From a virus, in IMG/VR virus record IMGVR_UViG_3300017991_001876, positions 1-26,089 of that record: a stretch of DNA of 26,089 nt; one strand, 5' to 3'. The notes under the pieces were generated by a model, which had not been told where the DNA came from, did not search any database, and saw only the letters and a program-made list of their open reading frames with translations. Position 1 is the stretch's first letter, and every line of letters begins with the position of its first letter. This document shows positions 467 through 24,805 of this stretch, in pieces. The translations under genes and the position numbers were made by a program.

Positions 467-727
467 ATGAAGAAGAAAGGACAAATTGCAAACCTTATGC
501 CTCTAGTTGTCTCACTTGTGGCAATTGGCATAACACTTGTTGTAGGTTTTTTAATCCTTTCTGAGATAGCTGCAAACTCAACTGTAGCTGCTGATACTAA
601 CGCATCGGCTGCTGTTGATGAAGTCCAGACTGCAATGGATGACATTCCAGGATGGTTGCCTATCATAGTAATCACCGTTATCGGTGCGTTGCTATTAGGT
701 CTAGTAGCCTATTTCAGGTCAAGGTAG
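467..727 (+). CDS. Major-capsid-like protein 1 (spindle-shaped virus type)
   Basis: 86 residues. A basic start MKKKGQIANL leads into hydrophobic helix 1 (about 12-32), then a small polar linker rich in Ala/Thr/Asn, then DIPGWLPIIVIT and helix 2 (about 58-80), ending in the basic YFRSR. Two helices in about 85-90 residues is the architecture of spindle-shaped archaeal virus capsid proteins, and the GWLPIIVI segment is shared with the downstream paralog. The KKKGQ start also resembles archaeal class III (pilin-like) signals. GGAGG sits 9 bases before the ATG, and the stop is TAG. Role (family-based): builds the membrane-like virion shell. No homology search was possible. Confidence 0.75.
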   Translation: MKKKGQIANLMPLVVSLVAIGITLVVGFLILSEIAANSTVAADTNASAAVDEVQTAMDDIPGWLPIIVITVIGALLLGLVAYFRSR

Positions 728-3552: not shown

Positions 3553-3639
3553 TTTATACGTAAATGTGTTAGATTATAATATATTTAAACATAAACTATT
3601 TAAAACTTTCCATTTATAAATTGTTAATTGCTGATTTTT
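3553..3639. promoter_or_regulatory. Divergent promoter between the RHH/ATPase operon and the virion operon
   Basis: On the plus strand ATTTATAAAT (3612-3621) is centred about 24 bases before the ATG at 3640, the spacing expected for a leaderless archaeal mRNA. On the minus strand TTTAAATATATTATAA (around 3575-3592) lies 25-40 bases before the RHH start at 3552. The region is almost entirely A/T. It is a natural target for the RHH protein encoded beside it. Confidence 0.65.
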
Positions 3640-6438
3640 ATGGTTAATCAAACCTCAAGCCAAAAAGCTGCGTCTGCATATACTCGAAGAGCATTTGCAG
3701 GTACAACTAGGTATCTTGGTTCTAGTAAACCACCGTCGGGAGGTGGAGGTGGAGGAATAAGTAAACCAAAAACACCAACTACTTCTTCAAGAGTAATCTA
3801 TGACCCAAAAACAGGTAAAGTTGTTACAAAGATTACTGTTGTCGGTACTCAGGTTACAGTTACAGACGTTGGAACTGGTAAAGTAACCAGATACAAAACA
3901 GATAAACCTATACACGCTTCTGAATTTACTGAAACTAAATCACCAGTAACAACAGGAGATGTAACTATTCAACAAAAGGGAATAAGAAGTTATGCAGAAC
4001 AAAGAAAAGAACAACTTGATACTAAACGTACAGTATTTAAAAAAACAGGTGTGTTTGAAGGTACTTTAGCAGAAGCCCAAGCTTCGGGATTCTTAGGTAA
4101 AACTTTTATTTCTCCTGAAACTATGAAACGGTCTGGTTCTCCAACAATTTCTATAACAGAAAAGACAACACCACAAGAATTTAAGATGCAAAGAGATGTA
4201 GCATTAGGTGGAGTTGGAAAAACAGTAAGTGTTGGTATAACAACACCTCCAAAATCAGTTAAAACAGGAATAATTGATGATGATGGATATGATTATGGGG
4301 TATTAGCAAGTAAAACTGGAATGACCAGTTCAATGTATCCATTACCTCCTTCACCTAAAGAACAATTTATATCTGGGTACGAAAGGAGAGTATTAGGATT
4401 AAAAAAAAGAGAAGAAAGGTTAGAAACATTTACCCAAAAATTAGATTTAGAGTTTCCAACAGGAATACAGGCTTGGAAACCTCGTGAACTCATAAAATTA
4501 CCTGGAAGATTCGCTTTTGCTCTTGCATCAATGCCTGTTGTTTATGGTGGTCGTATTTCTTTATTCACAGAATCATTATTTAGAAAGAAAGGAAGAGAAG
4601 AACTTGGAGAGGCTTTCCAAGAAACAATATCCTTCAAAAAACCTAGTGGAAAATTAAAAGTTCCAGGAATGATAACACAAATGGACTTTAAACAACCTGA
4701 AACTTATGTTGGTATAGCATTACTTGCTACTGGTGTTAGAACTGGTGCAAAAGCAAGAACACAAAAAATGTTATTTAAGGAAACAGAACTTGTAGGGGAA
4801 CAATATATGGGTATTAAATGTACACCTACAAAAGTAAAGTCGGATATATTATACCAAACTGAAAAATTTGAATATGTAAAACCTGAACATTATCCAAGTT
4901 CTTTTTATATTCAGGAAGTACCTACACCAACGGTTGCGATAGCCAAAAGTATTGGTGGAAAATCTAAAGTAACTAGTGTTATGATTGGAGGAAAACAATT
5001 TACTACAATCTCAAGAAAAATAATGGAAACACAATATCGGGCAAGGATAGAATCATACAAAGGAATAACTAAAACAAAGATATATGAACAGAAACCTGTT
5101 GTTGGTTCTGAAATTCCCATTGAAAAATTGATAAAGAAGTACACAAGAAAAACTGAACCGTCTATCGTATTCACTGAGGAAATAAGAGTAGGTAAAAAGT
5201 TACAGGCAATCTTTGAACCAGGTAGAACAATATTATCTAAACCAGAATTTCGTGTTGAAACAAAAAGAAAAGGTGTTTTTCAAAAAGGAATATCTGCAAT
5301 AGAGAAAGGTAAACAACCAATAGGAGAAATAAGTACAATTTATAGTCAAAAATTATTAACAAAAACAGTACAACCGAAGATAAGGGTAACAACTGGCCAA
5401 CCTATAATGGATTTGGATTTAGGGATGGTTGTTCCAGAGTATGTGACTTTAGAGATATTTAAAACTAAGTATAAGTATGTCGATTTTCCACCAAAACCTA
5501 AAACTGCATCATTGATTAAAGCAGGTAAAACATTATACAAAGAAACCCCAACTGTTTCTGCAACTTTTCAACAACTTTCAGCTAAACAGAGATTCTTTAT
5601 CGGTTTTGAAAAGAAATATATTAAACCAACAACAAGAAAGGTTAGCAAAGAATTTACTGAATTTGTTTCAAAGCCAATCGTAGAAGATTTTATAGGTATA
5701 AAAAAAGAGTTTGGTGGTTTTAAAGGTGACGTTGGTAATATTATGAAAGAAATGGTTGGGAAATATAAAAGACAAGGTATAAGAACGCAAGTTTTAGAAA
5801 GAACAGAAGTAGTAGAAATACCTAGACCTACAACTAAAATGGATATGTTAAGTGAACTAGAATATACTACCCCTAAACCGATAGCAGTTAGTAAAGTTGT
5901 ACCTGTAACTATTCCTAAATTAGAATCAAGATTAATTCCTTCTGTAAAGACAACTACAAAAACTGTTAGTAAGTCAAAAACTAAACCAACAAGTAAAATG
6001 ATAACAAAACCTATGATTAAACAAGTACCTAAGACAAAACCAATCAGTAAAGTTTTGATTAAGCCATTGATTAAACAAGTACCTAAGACAAAATCTATAA
6101 CAGTTCCGATAACTAAACCAGTTATGAAACAATTATCAAAACAGAAACAGATTCAAAAACAATTAACTAAACAAGTTACTAAAATGATGGAAATTAGACC
6201 AAGTACAACTATCGGAAGGAAAATTAGTTATTCGTTTTTTCCAGAAGAACCAATTATTCCTAAAATTTATGGTTTACCTTCATCAAGGTTACCGAAATTA
6301 ACTAAAAGGAAGAAGAAGAAACTTAAAATTACAAGAAAGACAAAGTACCAGCCATCTTTAGCAGGTATTGAGTATAAGATTAAAGGTGGTAAGCCTGATG
6401 TACTTACGGGTATCGGTGTGAGGCCATTAATAGGATGA
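3640..6438 (+). CDS. Large basic Lys/Thr-rich virion protein candidate, 932 residues
   Basis: The start is placed at ATG 3640 (MVNQTSSQKA) because the TATA box fits a leaderless transcript beginning there; a TTG 12 bases upstream is also in frame. The N-terminus carries a Gly6 run and Ser/Thr/Pro-rich linker. The middle has beta-rich segments and one weak hydrophobic stretch (about residues 290-310, FAFALASMPVVYGG). The C-terminal third is extremely basic with repeated TKP/IKQVPKTK units, including a perfect 25-bp DNA repeat. There is no signal peptide or enzyme motif. As the first gene of the late operon it may be a structural protein or contact packaged DNA; it belongs to no family I recognise. 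Confidence 0.75.
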   Translation: MVNQTSSQKAASAYTRRAFAGTTRYLGSSKPPSGGGGGGISKPKTPTTSSRVIYDPKTGKVVTKITVVGTQVTVTDVGTGKVTRYKTDKPIHASEFTETKSPVTTGDVTIQQKGIRSYAEQRKEQLDTKRTVFKKTGVFEGTLAEAQASGFLGKTFISPETMKRSGSPTISITEKTTPQEFKMQRDVALGGVGKTVSVGITTPPKSVKTGIIDDDGYDYGVLASKTGMTSSMYPLPPSPKEQFISGYERRVLGLKKREERLETFTQKLDLEFPTGIQAWKPRELIKLPGRFAFALASMPVVYGGRISLFTESLFRKKGREELGEAFQETISFKKPSGKLKVPGMITQMDFKQPETYVGIALLATGVRTGAKARTQKMLFKETELVGEQYMGIKCTPTKVKSDILYQTEKFEYVKPEHYPSSFYIQEVPTPTVAIAKSIGGKSKVTSVMIGGKQFTTISRKIMETQYRARIESYKGITKTKIYEQKPVVGSEIPIEKLIKKYTRKTEPSIVFTEEIRVGKKLQAIFEPGRTILSKPEFRVETKRKGVFQKGISAIEKGKQPIGEISTIYSQKLLTKTVQPKIRVTTGQPIMDLDLGMVVPEYVTLEIFKTKYKYVDFPPKPKTASLIKAGKTLYKETPTVSATFQQLSAKQRFFIGFEKKYIKPTTRKVSKEFTEFVSKPIVEDFIGIKKEFGGFKGDVGNIMKEMVGKYKRQGIRTQVLERTEVVEIPRPTTKMDMLSELEYTTPKPIAVSKVVPVTIPKLESRLIPSVKTTTKTVSKSKTKPTSKMITKPMIKQVPKTKPISKVLIKPLIKQVPKTKSITVPITKPVMKQLSKQKQIQKQLTKQVTKMMEIRPSTTIGRKISYSFFPEEPIIPKIYGLPSSRLPKLTKRKKKKLKITRKTKYQPSLAGIEYKIKGGKPDVLTGIGVRPLIG
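6015..6093 (+). repeat. Two perfect 25-bp repeats, 54-bp period, inside the large basic protein
   Basis: The copies at 6015-6039 and 6069-6093 are identical and both encode IKQVPKTK. The 54-bp offset is exactly 18 codons, so the repeat is in frame and reflects a duplicated 18-residue basic unit. Weaker copies follow (KPVMKQLSKQK), indicating older expansions of the same unit. Confidence 0.85.
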
Positions 6439-13271: not shown

Positions 13272-13586
13272 ATGTCAGTACCATCTCCACATAATTTATC
13301 AGCAATGAGTAACACAACAGGTATAGTAGGTTTAACTCAAGTTGTCAATGACCAATTAATGAACGGATTTTTTGGGTTACTCACAATTAGTACCATCTTC
13401 GTTATATGTATGATTGGTTTCATGGCAGCAACGGCCCATGCTGGAAAATCTTTTATAGCATCTTCTTGGATAACTTTTGTGTTATGTCTGTTCTTAAGAA
13501 TACTTGGTTTAGTTAATGACTTAACTATGTATGGAACTTTAGCAGTTGTAGTTTTTAGTATAGCTTTTGTTAGAACGAGGGATTGA
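13272..13586 (+). CDS. Three-helix membrane protein, 104 residues
   Basis: A polar N-terminus of about 30 residues with an NTT sequon precedes three hydrophobic segments (about 33-53, 62-80, 84-101). GAGGT lies 6 bases before the ATG. The final residues VRTRD overlap the ribosome site of the fibre gene (GAGG at 13577-13580). A small envelope protein by context; no family. Confidence 0.65.
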   Translation: MSVPSPHNLSAMSNTTGIVGLTQVVNDQLMNGFFGLLTISTIFVICMIGFMAATAHAGKSFIASSWITFVLCLFLRILGLVNDLTMYGTLAVVVFSIAFVRTRD

Positions 13587-13587
13587 T

Positions 13588-16500
13588 ATGACTAGATATA
13601 TCAACTTTTTTTTGTATGTAGTGTTTGTATTAATACTAATTATTCCGATAGTATATGGTTCTTATAATGCTTCTGTGAAGGATACTGGTATTGAATGGGT
13701 AAAAATAAACTTTTCTCCTGAGACTTCAACCACATCTTATCTTACATCCACTGCACCTCCTTATTTGTATGACCTTCTTGGGGTAGTGTATTTCAATGAA
13801 AGCAAGATGAACGCTACAATTGACGCTAGGGTATCTTCTGGTAACGCTAAAACAGGCACTGGTTATTTATATAACGATACAACATATATGTATCTAAACG
13901 AATCTCAACTAAACGATACAATCGACGCAAGAACAGGGGTAGTTGCCGTTGAAGGTAAAGTAAACTCAACTGCATGGAAATTAGTTGGTCTTGAAAATGT
14001 TACTTTACAAAATAATAATTATAATGTAAGTATAGGTACGTCTTCATCTGCATATAAATTAACAGTTGATGGTCAAACAAGACTAATGGATACTGATTGG
14101 CAATTAAGACTTACACATTCTGCAGGTGGTTGGTTAGCAACTGATTTTAATGTTGATGTAAACGGAGACTTAACCATTACTCCTCAAGGAGGAGAAACAA
14201 CTTTAACACACAACGCTTCTGTTACAAACAGATTTGGAGTAGGTACTACTACCCCTGATTATAAACTAGAAGTCGAAGATACAGGAAACGCTTACATCGC
14301 TGTTAAATCAACTGCTAACAGTGCAGCTATTTTCCGTATGGAAACTTCAACTACTGGCTATCATTTTGAAGGATACCAGGGCAAATTTAGAATAGTTGAA
14401 ACTGGTGTAGATTATCCAATAGTAGTTAATGATTATCCTGGGAAAATAGAGATTTCTAGAAACGTAACTATAAGTAATTGGTTAGAAGCAACAGGAGATA
14501 TTAATTCATCACAAAGAATATGCGATAGAAACGGATGTATAGGGTTTAATAACACAGATACGTGGAACACTACATCTGACTTTGCTGATGATTTTGTAAA
14601 TATTACAGGCGATACTATGACTGGGAATCTTAACATTTCACAAGAACTGTATGTTTACGGCAACACAAAATTATTTGATGATTTAGAGTTGTTCAACGAA
14701 CAATCGCCATCTACTATACAAATGAGAGGTAACACAAGTAAATACACTAGGGCAATACTTAAAATGTACGATAACCTTACATCAGATAATTATTGGGCAT
14801 TAATTAATAGGAATGTATCAGCTTTACCAATATTATCTTATTTAATGTTTGAGAGATATAATGGGACACACTGGATACAACCTATGAGAATATATCCGCA
14901 AGACCTTGTAACATATTTTAAAGATGAAGGAGTGGGAATAGGTGTTTACTCACCACAATATGAACTTGACGTAGAAGGAGATATTGCACTTACTAAAACA
15001 TTAATATTCGATAACGTGGGAGAAAACATATCTTCACTAGATACTGGATACCTTAAATCTGAGAGTAGAACTGGTTTACAATATGTATTTGATACAAATG
15101 CTAACAATAACCCAACAGATAAATTATTTGTAGTCTATAACGAAAATGAATCAGCTACGACAGAATTATTTGCTATAATGAAAAACGGTAGAATCGGTGA
15201 TGCTTCTAACACATACACTTGGGATGAACTTAACGCAACTGGAAGTGGAGGAGGTTCAGCACACACAGCAGTTACACCCTGGTTATACAACGATTCTAGC
15301 ACAATAACATTTAACGAAAGTTTTTTTAATTATTCAGTTATAGAACTGGTAAACGGAACTGAACTTAACGGAAGTAATTATTACGAAATTCAACCAGAAA
15401 ATGTTTTTATGCACAGTTTACCTGGTGCATCTTACAACAACTTACATAATCTGTTTGATGTAGTTGTAGGTTCGGCAGGTAGAATAGATGGTGGTATGAT
15501 TATCAAAAACCCAGACCAAACGATTAACGTAACAGGTGGCTCTGGTATGATAAGACAAACTGATGATGATTTATCAACAGTATATTTCATAAATTGGACT
15601 AATAGAGACAATATTCCTATCCCTACCGATTCAATAGTTTACATAGGTATAGATTACAATAATAGTGAACCTTTTGTTGTTAATTTCACAAACGTAGTAT
15701 CGTGGGATTTGGATACAAACTTTCCTCTTGGTTCTATAATAAACCAAAAAGATGATTTATACATATTAAATAATCCCTGGTGGGTTGGTGACGGATTAAC
15801 TAACATAATTGAAAGATTCCAAGCACAAGGTACAGAAAGAGATGATTCTATTGGTGGTTTAATCTTAGGTGTAACTGGTACTAGAAATCCAACATTAACA
15901 GCAGGCACTTTATGGTCTAGATTAAATGAGTTTGAAATATCAGCTAAAGATTGTTCTGTTGCAGATACAATATACACATTTTGGAGAGACGGTTCTGGAG
16001 GTTGGGAAAGGAGCAGCCAACAAAGTGATTATAACGTAACACATTACGATGATAATTCCGGTACATTACAAACACTTCAGAATAACTGGTACGCTAACTG
16101 GTGGGTATTCATAGAAATTGATTCTGCCAACAATGGACAACTAATGTTTATTTATCCACAGAACCAATATTCAACAAGTAGTTCAGCAGAAGCAGAAGAA
16201 GTGCCTGTATTCCCTTCGACATGGTATAAACATGGATTATTGATTGGGAGAGTATTAATCAAGGAAGGTACTGATACACCCATTGAAGTTCAAAGTGTGT
16301 TTACAACACAATTCACAGCAGCACAAGCGTCAGACCATGGGAACTTAGCAGGATTATCTGACGATGACCACCCACAATATGGGTTTAGATTAAATGTTCA
16401 ATACATAAACGAAACTCAACAAGCAGATAATACTACACAGGCAAGTTTAATCTCAACTTTAAGGGTAGATAATACCACCCAAGCTGCTGAAATAGCAACG

Positions 16501-17385
16501 AAAATATCTTTCTCAGATGTAAACGAATCATACATAAACTTAACTAACTCATACGATATGAACTGGACAAATATGATGACAGTCTTAGACGTTGTTATAC
16601 TCAACAATCTAACAGTACAAGACAACATATCAGCTAAATACTTTCATGGTAACGGTTCACAACTTACATCAATAACGTATTCAGAAACAGACCCACAGGT
16701 AGCTACGTTAGATGCAGGTGCAGAACGGTGGTGTAAAAGTAACGCAGCCGGAACTTCTATAAGTTGTTTAGCAACACACGCTATACCGAATGTACAAACT
16801 TACAAAAATATTAACGGTACATCTGGTAAAGTTACAGCGTCAGCACAAGGTAACACTCTTCAAGTTAGAAGTCCAGACGATTCTATCATATTTGGTCTTT
16901 ATAACACAGCACTCGCTAGAGGAGATTTCTGGAACTTTACATATAACTATTCTAAATATGACCATGAATTTACAGGAAACGTAAACATAACTAACGCAGA
17001 TTTAGATTTAGAAAACGGAGATTATATAGTACATGGAGATGAATTTGCTTTCCTTAACCCAACTGGTGCAGGTGTATATTTTGAATCGGCAGGGGGTGCT
17101 TCCAGAATAGCTTGGTACTCAACATCAGGTAACGAAATAGCATCAGTTAGTGTAATAGAAGCTTCAACAGCAGGTGTATTCAACGCAACCGATTATTTAG
17201 GTCAAGTTATAAGTTTATTCAGTATTGCAAGGTCTGGTAATAATATTTGCGATGATATGGATGGAATCCCTGATGCTAGATACGATTACACTTGTGTGGA
17301 TTGCGTATTATCAGAAAGTGGTGCTGCATCAACTTGTATTGCAACAACTAATTATAGAAATTGTATATGCAGAACTAATAGTTAA
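13588..17385 (+). CDS. Giant secreted fibre/adhesin with phage tail-fibre motifs
   Basis: 1265 residues from ATG 13588 (GAGG 8 bases upstream; an upstream in-frame TTG is rejected). A signal peptide (ending IPIVYGS) shows the protein crosses the membrane. Repeated FNESKMNATIDAR/LNESQLNDTIDAR units suggest short trimeric coils. Modules of the type GVGTTTPDYKLEVEDTGNAYI and MTGNLNISQELYVYGN match the repeat style of bacteriophage fibre shafts. Near residues 915-930 is DHGNLAGLSDDDHPQY, a motif familiar from phage tail fibres. A coiled stretch (ADNTTQASL...DNTTQAAEI) and a Cys-rich tip (CVDCVL...CICRTNS) follow. There is no C-terminal anchor. Probable virion fibre for host attachment, trimeric by analogy. 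Confidence 0.8.
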   Translation: MTRYINFFLYVVFVLILIIPIVYGSYNASVKDTGIEWVKINFSPETSTTSYLTSTAPPYLYDLLGVVYFNESKMNATIDARVSSGNAKTGTGYLYNDTTYMYLNESQLNDTIDARTGVVAVEGKVNSTAWKLVGLENVTLQNNNYNVSIGTSSSAYKLTVDGQTRLMDTDWQLRLTHSAGGWLATDFNVDVNGDLTITPQGGETTLTHNASVTNRFGVGTTTPDYKLEVEDTGNAYIAVKSTANSAAIFRMETSTTGYHFEGYQGKFRIVETGVDYPIVVNDYPGKIEISRNVTISNWLEATGDINSSQRICDRNGCIGFNNTDTWNTTSDFADDFVNITGDTMTGNLNISQELYVYGNTKLFDDLELFNEQSPSTIQMRGNTSKYTRAILKMYDNLTSDNYWALINRNVSALPILSYLMFERYNGTHWIQPMRIYPQDLVTYFKDEGVGIGVYSPQYELDVEGDIALTKTLIFDNVGENISSLDTGYLKSESRTGLQYVFDTNANNNPTDKLFVVYNENESATTELFAIMKNGRIGDASNTYTWDELNATGSGGGSAHTAVTPWLYNDSSTITFNESFFNYSVIELVNGTELNGSNYYEIQPENVFMHSLPGASYNNLHNLFDVVVGSAGRIDGGMIIKNPDQTINVTGGSGMIRQTDDDLSTVYFINWTNRDNIPIPTDSIVYIGIDYNNSEPFVVNFTNVVSWDLDTNFPLGSIINQKDDLYILNNPWWVGDGLTNIIERFQAQGTERDDSIGGLILGVTGTRNPTLTAGTLWSRLNEFEISAKDCSVADTIYTFWRDGSGGWERSSQQSDYNVTHYDDNSGTLQTLQNNWYANWWVFIEIDSANNGQLMFIYPQNQYSTSSSAEAEEVPVFPSTWYKHGLLIGRVLIKEGTDTPIEVQSVFTTQFTAAQASDHGNLAGLSDDDHPQYGFRLNVQYINETQQADNTTQASLISTLRVDNTTQAAEIATKISFSDVNESYINLTNSYDMNWTNMMTVLDVVILNNLTVQDNISAKYFHGNGSQLTSITYSETDPQVATLDAGAERWCKSNAAGTSISCLATHAIPNVQTYKNINGTSGKVTASAQGNTLQVRSPDDSIIFGLYNTALARGDFWNFTYNYSKYDHEFTGNVNITNADLDLENGDYIVHGDEFAFLNPTGAGVYFESAGGASRIAWYSTSGNEIASVSVIEASTAGVFNATDYLGQVISLFSIARSGNNICDDMDGIPDARYDYTCVDCVLSESGAASTCIATTNYRNCICRTNS

Positions 17386-17402
17386 ATTGGAGGAAATTAA
17401 AA

Positions 17403-17849
17403 ATGAACAAAACAAACAAGATTATGATTACGGTATTCGGTTTCATACTAATGGCTATGCTTGTATGGGCTACACAGCTTAATTTGGAAACACATTTCAA
17501 CAAAGATGATACAGATTACATTAACATAACTTGTGGAGAAACGCCCTGGGAGGACTGTGTAGCAGGCATTACAGAAGAAGATATAACAGAACTTAGAATA
17601 GAGGATAGAGAAACAGCAGTATGGCAAAAAGTAGACCAACTTTTACACTCTCCAAGATACCATAAAGCTTTCTTAGCATGGGCTGAAAATATCCAAGACG
17701 TAGGAGTATATTATTACTGCCAAGAAGGTTACGGAGAAACTGATGCAGAAATATGTTACTTAGTAAACAATTCTGGACACGATTGTTATTATAACGAAGG
17801 ACTAACATTATATGTCCCATGTATCAATAATGTATGGCAGATGTATTAG
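17403..17849 (+). CDS. Secreted Cys-rich protein, 148 residues
   Basis: An N-terminal signal/anchor (IMITVFGFILMAMLVWATQ, about 7-26) is followed by a soluble domain with seven cysteines (ITCGETPWEDC, YYYCQEGYG, EICYLVNNSGHDCYY, YVPCIN), likely disulfide-bonded outside the cell. GGAGG lies 10 bases upstream, and the stop is TAG. It is last in the virion operon, right after the fibre, and may cap or bind the fibre tip, which is also Cys-rich. Not recognised as a family. Confidence 0.7.
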   Translation: MNKTNKIMITVFGFILMAMLVWATQLNLETHFNKDDTDYINITCGETPWEDCVAGITEEDITELRIEDRETAVWQKVDQLLHSPRYHKAFLAWAENIQDVGVYYYCQEGYGETDAEICYLVNNSGHDCYYNEGLTLYVPCINNVWQMY

Positions 17850-17856
17850 TAAACTT

Positions 17857-17878
17857 AAAAATGGCTCAAAATTCATCA
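17857..17878. repeat. 22-bp direct repeat, left copy, flanking the DUF6948 cassette
   Basis: Identical over 22 bases to 18671-18692, in the same orientation (core ATGGCTCAAAATTCATCA). The two copies bracket exactly the glycine-repeat gene and the DUF6948-like gene. On the minus strand each copy reads ATGAATTTTGAGCC after a G-rich ribosome-site-like run, so it might be a duplicated 5' end of a lost or short gene. Confidence 0.85.
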
Positions 17879-17896
17879 TCCCTCAATTATGTGAAA

Positions 17897-17908
17897 CAAA
17901 AATAAAAG
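17897..17908 (-). terminator. T-rich terminator ending the early minus operon
   Basis: Directly after the glycine-repeat stop (TAA at 17911-17909) the minus strand reads CTTTTATTTTTG, a U-tract typical of archaeal termination, at the convergent junction with the virion operon. Confidence 0.5.
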
Positions 17909-18175
17909 TTAGCCATAGCCATCGCCAAAGCCATCGCCATCGCCAGAGCCATCCCCAGAGCCATAGCCAAAGCCATAGCCAAAGCCATCGCCATAGCCAT
18001 CGCCAGAGCCATAGCCAAAGCCATCGCCAGAGCCATCGCCATAGCCATCGCCAGAGCCATAGCCAAAGCCATCGCCAGAGCCATAGCCAAAGCCATCGCC
18101 ATAGCCATCGCCAGAGCCAAAGCCATCGCCAGAGCCAGAGCCATCGCCAAAGCCATAGCCAGTTTCCTTAGGCAT
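17909..18175 (-). CDS. Alternating-glycine repeat protein, 88 residues
   Basis: After MPKET every second residue is Gly, alternating with Tyr, Phe, Asp or Ser (GYGFGDGSGSGDG...). The ATG follows the stop of the DUF6948-like gene by one base, the coupling used by other real pairs here, which selects this frame among the several open ones. A low-complexity, flexible or self-associating chain is expected. From memory, DUF6948-type genes in phages are often followed by such GDGSGYG-rich sequences. Function is unknown; a surface, adhesive or condensate role is speculative. Confidence 0.65.
   Translation of the reverse strand: MPKETGYGFGDGSGSGDGFGSGDGYGDGFGYGSGDGFGYGSGDGYGDGSGDGFGYGSGDGYGDGFGYGFGYGSGDGSGDGDGFGDGYG
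17912..18160. repeat. Tandem hexanucleotide (GGC-NNN) array, about 41 units
   Basis: On the minus strand the array is GGC followed by TAT, TTT, GAT or TCT, repeated for about 249 bases with only one unit deviating (GGG). The repeat contains no stop in several frames on both strands, so three spurious long frames appear there. Variation among units is almost confined to the alternating codon, typical of slippage or recombination followed by selection. Confidence 0.9.
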
Positions 18176-18176
18176 T

Positions 18177-18554
18177 TTACTTACTCCAGATGCTAACTCC
18201 TTCGATGGACTTCTGACCTTCTTTAGTTGTGTTTATTATTTCAATCGCTTCTGTCAATGTTATTTCTGAAACAGCTACAGGAAACTTACACTTGCTAGGA
18301 TTTGAAGTTCCCCTCATAGCAAGTTCGCTTAAAGATGCTGCTCCTTCCCAGTACCAGATACGTCTAGCATTCTTCAATACTACTTCTTTTCCATTCTGTC
18401 TAAAAAGAAATCCAGCGAATACACCTGCACTATAAGTCCTCACAATAACATATTTCATTCCTTTAGACTTTTGCTTTTCCAACTGTTCAAGTAACTGGTT
18501 CTTCTTTGTGTCCAATTCTTCTATTTGTTGTTCTATTGTTTTTTTCTTACTCAA
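18177..18554 (-). CDS. DUF6948-like protein
   Basis: 125 residues from TTG 18554 (MSKKKTIEQQ): GAGGAGGT lies 7 bases upstream, whereas the ATG at 18560 is only 1-2 bases from it. A frame open to 18662 would run through an operator-like inverted repeat. A short coiled coil (about 4-28) precedes the domain KYVIVRTYSAGVFAGFLF...LKNARRIWYWEGAASLSELAMRG...CKFPVAVSEITLTEAIEII, which I recognise as the phage DUF6948 type; its biochemical function is not known. It is coupled to the glycine-repeat gene, and both sit between 22-bp direct repeats. Confidence 0.75.
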   Translation of the reverse strand: MSKKKTIEQQIEELDTKKNQLLEQLEKQKSKGMKYVIVRTYSAGVFAGFLFRQNGKEVVLKNARRIWYWEGAASLSELAMRGTSNPSKCKFPVAVSEITLTEAIEIINTTKEGQKSIEGVSIWSK

Positions 18555-18584
18555 TTTCATTACCTCCTCAATTTTTGCTATATT

Positions 18585-18628
18585 ATGTAATACATTTTTT
18601 TCAGGATTTACCCAATAATGTATTACAT
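18585..18628. promoter_or_regulatory. 12-bp perfect inverted repeat upstream of the DUF6948-like gene
   Basis: ATGTAATACATT (18585-18596) and AATGTATTACAT (18617-18628) are exact inverse complements, 20 bases apart and about 30-75 bases upstream of the start. Centre-to-centre spacing is 32 bases, about three helical turns, fitting a dimer-of-dimers repressor site. A TATA-like CATAATATAG overlaps the proximal arm. The likely binder is one of the RHH/HTH proteins of this operon (inference). Confidence 0.6.
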
Positions 18629-18670
18629 TGCTAGTTGTTATACTTAGTGTTTGACTCTCCAATATATATC

Positions 18671-18692
18671 AAAAATGGCTCAAAATTCATCA
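18671..18692. repeat. 22-bp direct repeat, right copy
   Basis: Identical to 17857-17878. It lies between the DUF6948-like gene and the next upstream early gene (ends 18768). Bases just outside the repeat differ on the left and are only loosely similar on the right (C-rich then TTAAT versus CAATTAT). Confidence 0.85.
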
Positions 18693-18767
18693 ACCCCCCT
18701 TAATCTGTAATTTTCATGCTTGAAACGCATTTGGTATACAGATGTTATACTTTTTGGCCAATGTGGG

Positions 18768-19052
18768 TTATACTAATTCTGCCTTTTTCTTGATATTTTC
18801 AATCTTTTGGGTAGCTTTTCTGATACTCTCAGACTTCCTTATAGACGTGAAGTAAGTTTCCATTTCAGCCATATCTAAGTCATTGTATACCTTTTCGGGG
18901 TTTCTTATGGCAGATAAGGCTAAGGTTATACCGAACTTCACAGCCTTTGGAATATCTCCATATACCCCTGTAATACCCATCAATTCCACTAATTCCTTTA
19001 TGTTTTGTTGGTCTTGCTCATTAAAGCTAATTGGTATCTTCTTTGTTGTCAT
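18768..19052 (-). CDS. Putative RHH-type DNA-binding protein, 94 residues
   Basis: An N-terminal strand (KKIPISFNEQD) is followed by two helices (QQNIKELVELMG; DIPKAVKFGITLALSAI) in ribbon-helix-helix order, then a charged helical tail (about 55-94) that could dimerise. AAGGATAAGG precedes the ATG. It follows the 65-residue membrane gene by a few bases. A regulator is likely; its target is unknown, with the inverted repeat at 18585-18628 a candidate. Confidence 0.6.
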   Translation of the reverse strand: MTTKKIPISFNEQDQQNIKELVELMGITGVYGDIPKAVKFGITLALSAIRNPEKVYNDLDMAEMETYFTSIRKSESIRKATQKIENIKKKAELV

Positions 19053-19057
19053 TTTCC

Positions 19058-19255
19058 TTATCCTTTTCTTCTATCTTTAAAATGAAACTCCCAACGGATT
19101 TTATCATATTTAGTCTGTTGTTCCTTTTTGTTTCTTATTTTACGATTTGTTCTTTTATTGTCATTTTCTTCTCTTTCGTTACTTATTGGCAACCACCACC
19201 CAACTATTATACCTGCTATAAAGATAATAATGATAGTTATTATTTCGATATTCAT
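19058..19255 (-). CDS. Single-pass membrane protein with basic tail, 65 residues
   Basis: An N-terminal helix (IEIITIIIIFIAGIIVGWWLP, about 3-23) is followed by a highly charged Lys/Arg/Glu tail of 40 residues, expected in the cytoplasm. The start overlaps the stop of the zinc-ribbon gene by four bases (ATGA). Unknown function. Confidence 0.6.
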   Translation of the reverse strand: MNIEIITIIIIFIAGIIVGWWLPISNEREENDNKRTNRKIRNKKEQQTKYDKIRWEFHFKDRRKG

Positions 19256-19455
19256 TTAATCACCTTTATTTTTTTTCCACAGAACGGACAGTATTTAATA
19301 TTAATAGCTGAATAACAACCACCACCGCAACAGGAATCTATACACCATTCTTGGTCATCTTTGTATCTATAAATCCCATACTCAGTATCCGAACCACAAT
19401 CGCATACATACTTGAAATATTTTCCATCATGGTTTGGGTATTCTTTCCCTGTCAT
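19252..19455 (-). CDS. Cys-rich zinc-ribbon protein, 67 residues
   Basis: The start at ATG 19455 (MTGKEYPNHD) is preferred: GGGAG lies five bases upstream and the ATG overlaps the stop of the small paralog fragment. A longer in-frame start at 19500 lies across that fragment. Metal-binding positions are VCDCG, SCCGGGC and YCPFCGKK; the last is a classic zinc knuckle. Likely nucleic-acid or protein binding; no specific family. Confidence 0.65.
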   Translation of the reverse strand: MTGKEYPNHDGKYFKYVCDCGSDTEYGIYRYKDDQEWCIDSCCGGGCYSAINIKYCPFCGKKIKVIK

Positions 19456-19556: not shown

Positions 19557-20759
19557 TTACGTGTTACTATGTTTAATTTTTAGATACCTTTTATATGCTT
19601 CACTTTTTGGTTGTGTTAATCCTAATCCTTTACACCACCAATCATTTCTTAACAATACTTTACATAGTCTTCTGTATGATGGTACCCATTGTTTTTTTTC
19701 TAATTCTAATGGTGCTTCATCAGGTATATCGTCGATATATCCTCTTTTACGCCAACCACCAATCCATTTTCTAAATCTTTCTAAAAAGTGTTCCCTAGTT
19801 ACTTTTGGCATAGTTTTAAGTAGTAATACACAAAAACTTCTCCAAGTATGATTATCTGGTTTTATTATTTTGTTGTATCCAGTTATATTACCAGATTCAG
19901 TTATGTATAAACTACCTGAATTTACACCATTAACTCTATTAACCACTTTATACCATGTTTCTGGTTCTAATATGTGATATAACCACAATCCTCTTCGTTG
20001 GTCATCTCCATATGGTTGACATAATCTTTGTTCATGCATAGATAAACCTGCTTGATGCATTAGGTCATATATTTTATTGTATCTCTTATCTTTATTTTTA
20101 TTATGATATACCCATACATCAGTAGTTTTCCAATCATATAAAGGATATATGTTATATACTTTATCTACTACTTTTGTTGTCCATCTCATACCACTATATA
20201 CTTCTTTTTCTGCTGTTGCAACTGTTCTAAATCTATTTAATGATTCATCTGCTCTTATCCCAACAAAACAAGCTGTATCTTTTCCTTTTGCGTACCATTT
20301 AGCAAATAATATAATAAATTCTTCAAACTCCATTTTATCTTCAAAAAAATCGAAATAATTAGGGTCTGTTATAACCCCATTTAATTTAGGAGGTTCTCTA
20401 ACCCAATCTTTTTTTTTATCAGGGTCCCAAGCACACCATGTTGGTTCAAAACAACTTACAGCATTTCTCAGTTTAATTGGTAAACAAACCCAATATAATT
20501 CTATATGTTCTCTGTATTTTTCAACCATTTTAATCGAATGTTCAATGGTGTGTCTATATTGTGCTTCTAAATCAATTAATAAGACACCTATTTTTTTATT
20601 TCTCTTTATTGCTTCATCCATAACTATATGCAACATTGTAGTTGAATCTTTTCCTCCTGAAAAAGATACATATGCTGTATCAAAATTATCTAATATGTAT
20701 CCAACTCTCTTTTTTGATGCAGTATATGTATCAATACCTAAATAATTTTTAGTTTTAAT
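19557..20759 (-). CDS. IbrA-like PP-loop (PAPS reductase-fold) protein
   Basis: 400 residues if it starts at ATT 20759. The PP-loop VSFSGGKDSTTM (about 31-42) lies upstream of the first ATG (20636), so that ATG cannot be the true start; GGAGGTG lies about 7 bases before the ATT. Next come LLIDLEAQYRHT, a middle domain with Trp/Cys/Arg-rich segments and a C-terminal region (WVPSYRRLCKVLLRNDWWCKGLGL) characteristic of DUF3440/IbrA proteins. PP-loop enzymes adenylate substrates, often in sulfur transfer or nucleic-acid modification; the IbrA reaction is not established. Its partner is the ParB-like gene directly upstream. Base composition is more AT-rich than neighbours. Confidence 0.8.
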   Translation of the reverse strand: MKTKNYLGIDTYTASKKRVGYILDNFDTAYVSFSGGKDSTTMLHIVMDEAIKRNKKIGVLLIDLEAQYRHTIEHSIKMVEKYREHIELYWVCLPIKLRNAVSCFEPTWCAWDPDKKKDWVREPPKLNGVITDPNYFDFFEDKMEFEEFIILFAKWYAKGKDTACFVGIRADESLNRFRTVATAEKEVYSGMRWTTKVVDKVYNIYPLYDWKTTDVWVYHNKNKDKRYNKIYDLMHQAGLSMHEQRLCQPYGDDQRRGLWLYHILEPETWYKVVNRVNGVNSGSLYITESGNITGYNKIIKPDNHTWRSFCVLLLKTMPKVTREHFLERFRKWIGGWRKRGYIDDIPDEAPLELEKKQWVPSYRRLCKVLLRNDWWCKGLGLTQPKSEAYKRYLKIKHSNT

Positions 20760-21882
20760 ATAAATCCACCTCCATTTTTGATGATGCTTGTTCTATTGAA
20801 TCAATTGGTTCTCGTTTATTATCAATTAACCATTTATTTAAATATTTTAGTGCCAATTTATCTGCTTGAATTTGTTGTTCTTCTGTAAGTAAATTATATC
20901 CTCCTCTAAATCTTGAAGGAATGCCATTATATAGACAAATAGATGCTTGTCCTAACCAAGCTATCCTATTCATGTTTTCATTTGTTAAATAATGTTCACA
21001 TGAATGTTTCCATTCTTTAATAACTTTTTTTAAATATTTTTCGAATAACGTTAAATCTCTTAAAAATTTAGCATATGACATTTCACAATCTTCATTATTC
21101 ATTCCAGTTGGTGGATGTTCTGAATAGAATCCATGTTTGTAACATTCCCACTTATCCCAAGTATGAAGTATTCTATTACCTTCGTATCTTTTATCTTTCT
21201 TTATATCTTCTTCATTTAAAAAAAGGAAATCTTCTTCTTTAAATATTTCAGCATTCCATGCTTCACTAAAATCTTCATTAGAGAATACTTCATTTAATCC
21301 GGAAATCTGACATAATCTTAATATTTCATCTTCATCCATACCTAATTGTTTTGATATTTTCTTATTTGACCAATTCCGTTTTTTTAATTCAATAACTATA
21401 TCTGTCATTCCATCAACAGTATGTTTTCCTCTTGCTCTATTATGCCTTATTGTTGATGCTATTCTATTGTTTTTATCTTCTTGTGATTTTCTTATTTCAA
21501 CAATTGGCAAATAATCCATTAATCGTTTATTTACTTCTTCTACTTCTTTTCCTACTCTATTTCTATGAAATCCATCTACAACTGTTATCTTATTATCTTC
21601 AGGAAAAGTTACTATTGGTTGTGTAAATCCATCATTCATTATACTTACTTTTAATAATTCCATCTCTGGAGGTGCTACTTTATTTGGATTATATTCATTT
21701 GCTTGTACTTGTTCAGATTTTACCCATAACACACAATCTACAGGTTCATTCTTAAATGGGCTTATATTATGTAATTTTCTTTTTATTTCATTTATTAAGC
21801 TTATCTTTTCTTTTAAATCTGTTATGTTTGTTATATGTTCAATAAGCAAATCTATTTCTTGATTTAATCTATGTTTAATCAT
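20755..21882 (-). CDS. IbrB-like ParB/sulfiredoxin-fold protein
   Basis: 375 residues. An N-terminal helical region (1-45) precedes the ParB-like domain (about 50-130) with VKSEQVQANEYNPN, GFTQPIV and the signature VVDGFHRNRVG (101-111), then an HTH-like segment (KKRNWSNKKISKQLGMDEDEIL). The C-terminal ~150 residues (WLGQASICLYNGIPSRFRGGYNLLTEEQQ) are typical of ParB-like partners of DUF3440 proteins rather than chromosome-partition ParB. In E. coli the homologous IbrB/IbrA pair affects virulence gene expression; the mechanism is unknown. The family can bind nucleotides or cleave DNA. Its last codons overlap the start region of the PP-loop gene. Confidence 0.8.
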   Translation of the reverse strand: MIKHRLNQEIDLLIEHITNITDLKEKISLINEIKRKLHNISPFKNEPVDCVLWVKSEQVQANEYNPNKVAPPEMELLKVSIMNDGFTQPIVTFPEDNKITVVDGFHRNRVGKEVEEVNKRLMDYLPIVEIRKSQEDKNNRIASTIRHNRARGKHTVDGMTDIVIELKKRNWSNKKISKQLGMDEDEILRLCQISGLNEVFSNEDFSEAWNAEIFKEEDFLFLNEEDIKKDKRYEGNRILHTWDKWECYKHGFYSEHPPTGMNNEDCEMSYAKFLRDLTLFEKYLKKVIKEWKHSCEHYLTNENMNRIAWLGQASICLYNGIPSRFRGGYNLLTEEQQIQADKLALKYLNKWLIDNKREPIDSIEQASSKMEVDLY

Positions 21883-24574: not shown

Positions 24575-24805
24575 TTATTTCTCCAGCTTGAACCCATATA
24601 TACTATTATACTTTATAGATATAATATTATATATAATATTATCATAGTAGCCTCTTCTCAATTCAAAAATTCTTGCATTATACTGATAAATCCCTAAATT
24701 TAAGAGAGATTTTGTTGATACGAACTCATTTTCTGTTAATAACTTAAGGATTTTTCCACACTGGTCATCCCTATTCTGAAACTGTGTCATTGTAAGCTGA
24801 GTCAT
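24575..24805 (-). CDS. HTH_39-like helix-turn-helix protein, 76 residues
   Basis: The pattern QCGKILKLLTENEFVSTKSLLNLGIYQYNARIFELRRGY...YGFKLEK is the compact winged/HTH domain (HTH_39 type) common in phages and mobile elements; the conserved piece is LGIYQYNARIFELRRGY. It likely binds DNA; targets unknown. Start at 24805 (MTQLTMTQFQ), with AAGGAG about 10 bases upstream; it overlaps the 42-residue gene. Confidence 0.7.
   Translation of the reverse strand: MTQLTMTQFQNRDDQCGKILKLLTENEFVSTKSLLNLGIYQYNARIFELRRGYYDNIIYNIISIKYNSIYGFKLEK

Follow-up and report, generated by a model that had tools for sequence, protein, structure and literature searches.

The entry of small accessory modules into viral genomes has been called mysterious (PMC4378225). 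The closest described case is the insertion of genes 43-46 in the mycobacteriophage LRRHood, a 1.35-kb segment with 29-bp direct repeats that occur as a single copy in empty relatives (PMC3029335). In morons, a deviating base composition is a usual trait, not a required one (PMC4378225). A proposed route to mosaicism is relaxed recombination, carried out by Rad52-like proteins of phages (PMC3945230). The locus studied here lies in a virus contig of 26,089 nt, which we call the window; it has 123-bp direct terminal repeats and is a complete-looking virus record. The locus holds two genes, one of the family DUF6948 and one for a glycine-repeat (Gly-X) protein, flanked by two copies of a 22-bp repeat. 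It resembles the LRRHood insertion in its small accessory genes, its unrelated neighbours, and its short perfect direct repeat with one copy at a gene end. It differs in that the same gene pair is found in hundreds of viruses, and is thus not a one-off cargo, and in that no empty relative is known. On balance we lean, without great confidence, towards a moron-like two-gene module in which the 22-bp repeats are the scar of a short-homology insertion or relocation that duplicated a gene border. The features are as follows.

17857-17878, no strand assigned: left 22-bp repeat copy, which reads on the minus strand as a G-rich run followed by ATGAATTTTGAGCCATTTTT.
18671-18692, no strand assigned: right 22-bp repeat copy; on the minus strand, it precedes the DUF6948 ATG by about 110 nt.
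17808-17876, minus strand: 22-codon ORF MNFEPFLSLLIHLPYIIDTWDI, beginning within the left copy and running antisense into the 3' end of the convergent gene (17403-17849).
18631-18690, minus strand: 19-codon ORF MNFEPFLIYIGESNTKYNN, beginning within the right copy; a putative gene-start remnant, with counterparts in loci L162 and L058.
18585-18628, no strand assigned: perfect 12-bp inverted repeat ATGTAATACATT / AATGTATTACAT, between the right copy and DUF6948.
18177-18560, minus strand: DUF6948 protein, 127 aa (Pfam PF22253, E=2.5e-32), with a predicted N-terminal helix and Sm/LSm-like beta fold.
17909-18175, minus strand: Gly-X repeat protein, 88 aa, where X is Y, F, D, or S; partner gene of DUF6948, with a codon pattern that backs the frame.

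The same 22 bases (AAAAATGGCTCAAAATTCATCA) match exactly at the two sites and lie in direct orientation on both sides of the two-gene unit, as given in a preliminary description of this DNA. That description placed them immediately outside the unit, which holds on the left, where 31 nt separate the stop of the Gly-X gene from the start of the copy, and is slightly loose on the right. The left copy also lies 8 nt past the stop of the convergent gene. There are exactly two copies in the window; no further one was found there at up to three mismatches (shuffle expectation 0.00), and the 22-mer is absent from all other contigs of the IMG/VR collection. A chance origin of the pair is very unlikely. 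The longest direct repeat reached 22 nt in one of 600 Markov-simulated genomes (none of the 400 built at orders 1-2 and one of the 200 built at order 4) and was mostly of 14-17 nt. From composition, about 2e-4 chance 22-mer pairs are to be expected in the whole genome and about 1e-7 in a pair of 400-nt flanks.

The repeat has an abrupt border on one side and extends on the other, G-rich side, where it covers 26 nt if one mismatch is allowed, or 40 nt at 83%. On the minus strand, both copies read a G-rich run and then ATGAATTTTGAGCC, which had been noticed before, and both open the short ORFs listed above. To judge from these letters, the window repeat looks like a duplicated gene start, and the left-copy ORF may be a second copy of the start seen in the right-copy ORF. 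The preliminary description had offered a duplicated gene start as its alternative, and this is the best fit to the window and to the parallel cases of L162 and L058 described below. In the course of events that we favour, the module would have been inserted or relocated at a gene border of the window virus, and short-homology or strand-annealing recombination would have duplicated this border (the ribosome-binding site and the stretch opening with ATGAATTTTGAGCC), so that a copy now lies at either end of the module. The duplication would have arisen with the arrival of the module, which would sit behind its own AT-rich leader. Relaxed recombination of the Rad52-like kind may have acted at the module, by analogy with the proposal for phages; no strand-annealing recombinase, including Rad52-like proteins, was recognised in the window virus. 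The spacer upstream of DUF6948 is AT-rich, 207 nt long, and contains the inverted repeat, which is a possible operator of the two-gene unit; the z-score of its hairpin is only -1.2. The base composition of the module does not deviate: the GC content of DUF6948 (35.9%) does not stand out from that of the genome (33.4%), and the 58% of the Gly-X gene is explained by its codons.

The main rival to this reading gives the repeats a function that has no link to insertion: they could be identical U-rich terminators of the archaeal type, or some other regulatory element. A minus-strand stop lies shortly before each copy (that of an ORF ending at 18768 and that of the Gly-X gene, which ends at 17909), and each copy ends in T5 at its 3' end, but the exact identity over 22 nt and the abrupt 3' border exceed the needs of a T-tract terminator. 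Neither copy is structured as RNA beyond shuffles, the left one included, and the window has no Rfam or tRNA matches, on which grounds we rejected the 22-mer as a structured terminator or a known RNA. Archaeal terminators may need no RNA structure. The 44-mer flanking the module of L015, found nowhere else in that genome, is a terminator-like hairpin, which would suit the rival; on the other hand, the window has only two copies of its repeat even though the genome has other operons. We regard a terminator or other regulatory element as unlikely.

The two genes between the repeats form a conserved pair that is largely restricted to viruses. The window protein is a clear member of PF22253, scoring 111.3 bits against a gathering cut-off of 27. 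Pfam lists this family as of unknown function, and no paper in the library that we searched names it; the partner gene and the fold have apparently not been described before. Among the 122 distinct DUF6948 proteins that we collected from viral and genome contigs, 106 had at least 150 nt of readable downstream sequence, and a Gly-X repeat ORF follows the DUF6948 gene in 101 of these 106. It overlaps the DUF6948 stop in 86 cases, with the same 12-nt offset in 76 of them. The same pair is present in cultured phages of Pectobacterium, Iodobacter, Vibrio, and Chlorobiaceae. We assign the module to viruses because one scan found 418 viral loci and a parallel scan found 6 in 84,980 prokaryote species, a ratio that is rough since the peptide patterns searched for were not all the same in the two scans. 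A tightly conserved pair that is restricted to viruses and present in hundreds of unrelated ones must serve a useful role.

The Gly tract is not a frame artefact, as the codon pattern within and between viruses rules this out. Any one virus is nearly uniform in its Gly codon and in the third base of its X codons, and between viruses both differ, while the G-[S/Y/D/N/F] protein pattern stays constant despite the codon change (X is nearly always S, Y, D, N, or F). Even close phages differ in this tract, which is hypervariable. Across six closely related Pectobacterium phages, the DUF6948 gene has a constant 399 nt, whereas the Gly-X gene has 222, 258, 270, 222, 204, and 162 nt; these lengths differ in steps of 6 nt, and a constant MSKLIKPEKYG leader is followed by residues in scrambled order. 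In four loci, a longer protein encoded beside DUF6948 has the Gly-X stretch at its N terminus (L024:1863-2618, L112:3267-3872, L113:3267-3986, L114:3258-3980), and its conserved C-terminal domain of about 150 aa has no Pfam match. The Gly-X gene or its start is doubled next to DUF6948 in L045 (2179-2900) and L008 (4479-5670). Directly downstream of the module of L123 (3450-4040) lies a gene for a long Cys-rich NCSNCSDCS repeat protein.

The pair has different neighbours in different viruses. Taking the three nearest genes on each side of 44 modules, we obtained 233 neighbour proteins that fell into 205 similarity clusters. The module tends, in counts given without a baseline, to lie within the early recombination/replication region, because the most common PHROG matches of 129 nearby proteins that we sampled were RecT, Bet, and Erf strand-annealing proteins, exonucleases, a Holliday-junction resolvase, and HNH endonucleases.

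Queries with the MCP and a membrane protein retrieved L025 as the sole relative of the window virus, and a query with the ATPase retrieved none. The two viruses have structural genes in common, at roughly 28-79% identity, and L025 also has the pair; its DUF6948 protein is 73% identical to that of the window and its sister in the tree (99/90). In the compared part of L025, the early genes other than DUF6948 and Gly-X had no detectable match. The L025 module has another neighbourhood and no flanking repeats. For this reason, the module is probably old in this virus group, where it would be ancestral, and the repeat of the window would mark a relocation or a later event at most. The structural block also appears rearranged between the two viruses, because the large fibre-like gene sits at different places (region 13567-17849 of the window and 1813-5416 of L025). 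The repeat could then be a by-product of another rearrangement unrelated to the module, for example a move of the fibre gene together with the gene at 17403-17849. These two genes do sit elsewhere in L025, and the left copy adjoins the second of them, but the copies would bracket exactly the module by coincidence, and the same pattern is enriched in other viruses. We find such a by-product quite improbable.

The enrichment was measured in two ways. Of 92 modules, 7 are bordered by an exact direct repeat of 18 nt or longer; among 1097 size-matched random segments, 1 is. Using local alignments, and as controls segments aligned to real gene boundaries within the same loci, a score of at least 36 (a threshold set after the data were seen) was reached by 11 of 94 modules and 28 of 1065 controls (Fisher p=1.4e-4); the window, picked for its repeat, is one of the 11, and without it the count is 10 of 93. 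At a score of at least 45, there were 8 of 94 modules and 8 of 1065 controls. We discarded controls at random positions (2 of 938 at a score of at least 36) since they overstate the effect, the gene boundaries being the fair comparison. In about 88% of the modules, no duplicated border could be detected, and duplications of this kind also accompany about 3% of the other gene borders.

The flanking repeats differ in sequence and length, from 18 to about 79 nt, from virus to virus, and a search for a common motif among them found none. The copied material consists of gene starts, gene ends, ribosome-binding sites, and terminators. The start of the next gene is duplicated in L162 (MNLDEK...) and L058 (MTDDSE...), a 3' end in L079 (QEQANKLLK*), and in these three loci truncated gene starts or ends adjoin the module. 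Ribosome-binding sites or leader stretches are duplicated in L123, L143, and L052, and a Gly-X gene end is in tandem in L091. The window repeat, with its G-rich run followed by ATGAATTTTGAGCC, fits this gene-border pattern. These border duplications provide a sample of frozen insertion events with which to ask how small accessory modules enter viral genomes.

About one module in ten is closely bordered by duplications, in viruses that are unrelated, and the module roams. Both could also be expected of a dedicated mobile cassette, its repeats being att-like or the target-site duplications of a recombinase that acts on it in trans in many viruses. Such a cassette sits badly with repeats that differ in every virus, with the many modules that have none, and with the lack of a recombinase in the module itself; in the window, a Pfam scan of the 39 ORFs recognised no transposase or integrase, as previously stated, nor any other recombinase. 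There is no shared recombination site of the att or integron kind: the repeats all differ, and their lack of a common motif leaves a dedicated site unsupported. We hold the mobile cassette to be decidedly improbable. Of the cargo slot put forward in the preliminary description, one part survives, in that the genes move as a unit and that border duplications are enriched around them in unrelated viruses; the idea of a dedicated site-specific slot is unsupported, on the same grounds as the cassette and because the 22-mer is absent from the other IMG/VR contigs. The moron-like module is favoured over it because there is neither a common site nor a recognisable recombinase.

The preliminary description had also pointed to empty sites in related genomes as a check. 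Neither the window nor any of the flanked relatives that we tried yielded one, and this is the weak point of the reading that we favour. A blastn search of the window (17000-19300), L015, L123, and L162 against GenBank phages returned no matching flank, and the search among our own loci gave no convincing case. The pairings of L008 with L006/L099 and of L080 with L071/L167 were rejected, as the homologies are weak and the genomes carry the module anyway, and L015 and L115 turned out to be the same contig.

The DUF6948 protein is predicted to adopt an Sm fold. The AlphaFold model of the window protein has a pLDDT of 92, and its best 50 PDB matches in Foldseek all contain Sm/LSm proteins (probability 0.97-1.00, E from 2e-3). 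The model of a divergent member, from L018 (pLDDT 90), likewise has only Sm/LSm among its top PDB matches, and also matches 3by7, a structure described as resembling Sm/LSm RNA-binding proteins. For both models, the TM normalised by target is mostly 0.45-0.72 and the Foldseek E-values against the PDB are 2e-3 and above. In a search of a viral structure library, DUF6948 proteins rank first and phage Sm-like proteins lower. Scans of Pfam and NCBIfam found no Sm sequence family (Sm1/Sm2 motifs or profile) in DUF6948, and a profile search of the PDB matched no Sm chain and no other PDB sequence; for this reason we use 'Sm-like' for a predicted fold and not for family membership. The likeness to spliceosomal Sm, LSm, and archaeal SmAP proteins and to 3by7 lies in the small beta barrel, with an N-terminal helix in the window protein. 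In contrast to these proteins, DUF6948 has extra helices, conserved WYW-[ED]-G-A and CKF motifs, and a separate Gly-X partner gene.

We take the Gly-X protein to resemble the Gly/Tyr/Ser-rich low-complexity domains of the FUS/hnRNP type. It is like them in combining G with S, Y, D, N, and F and in its low complexity, and unlike them in its near-strict Gly-X alternation, its almost complete lack of arginine, and its being a small protein of its own. The predicted fold and the pairing of the two genes suggest that DUF6948 may form a ring that binds RNA or single-stranded DNA, with the G/Y/S/D-rich Gly-X protein as a low-complexity partner that would self-associate or act as a decoy. The fold and the partner gene give rise to a hypothesis that can be tested, in which an Sm-like protein of viruses has a low-complexity partner. 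A broader proposal, which we advance as doubtful, is that of a nomadic pair of bacterial viruses and of the window virus, made of an Sm-like ring protein and a separate hypervariable Gly-X protein, that would serve as an RNA- or ssDNA-binding assembly factor or as an inhibitor of a host process and would be pasted at gene borders with target duplication.

Some other genes of the window deserve mention. Tandem small hydrophobic proteins, two in the window (467-727 and 798-1058) and three in L025 (9968-11047), are probably paralogues of the major capsid protein in a virus group not yet described; they have no relative among GenBank phages, and the other window structural proteins that we tried have none there either, except for a tail-fibre-like segment. 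The gene at 3628-6438 contains three degenerate 54-nt in-frame repeats (5977-6138). On the minus strand, a PAPS-reductase/DUF3440 gene lies beside a ParB-like gene (19557-20636 and 20755-21882), and the relatives of the latter include a protein annotated as IbrB in an E. coli phage. The two would be an IbrA/IbrB-like pair in an unrelated virus. Finally, a perfect 22-nt palindrome, ATAATATTATATATAATATTAT, occupies positions 24621-24642.
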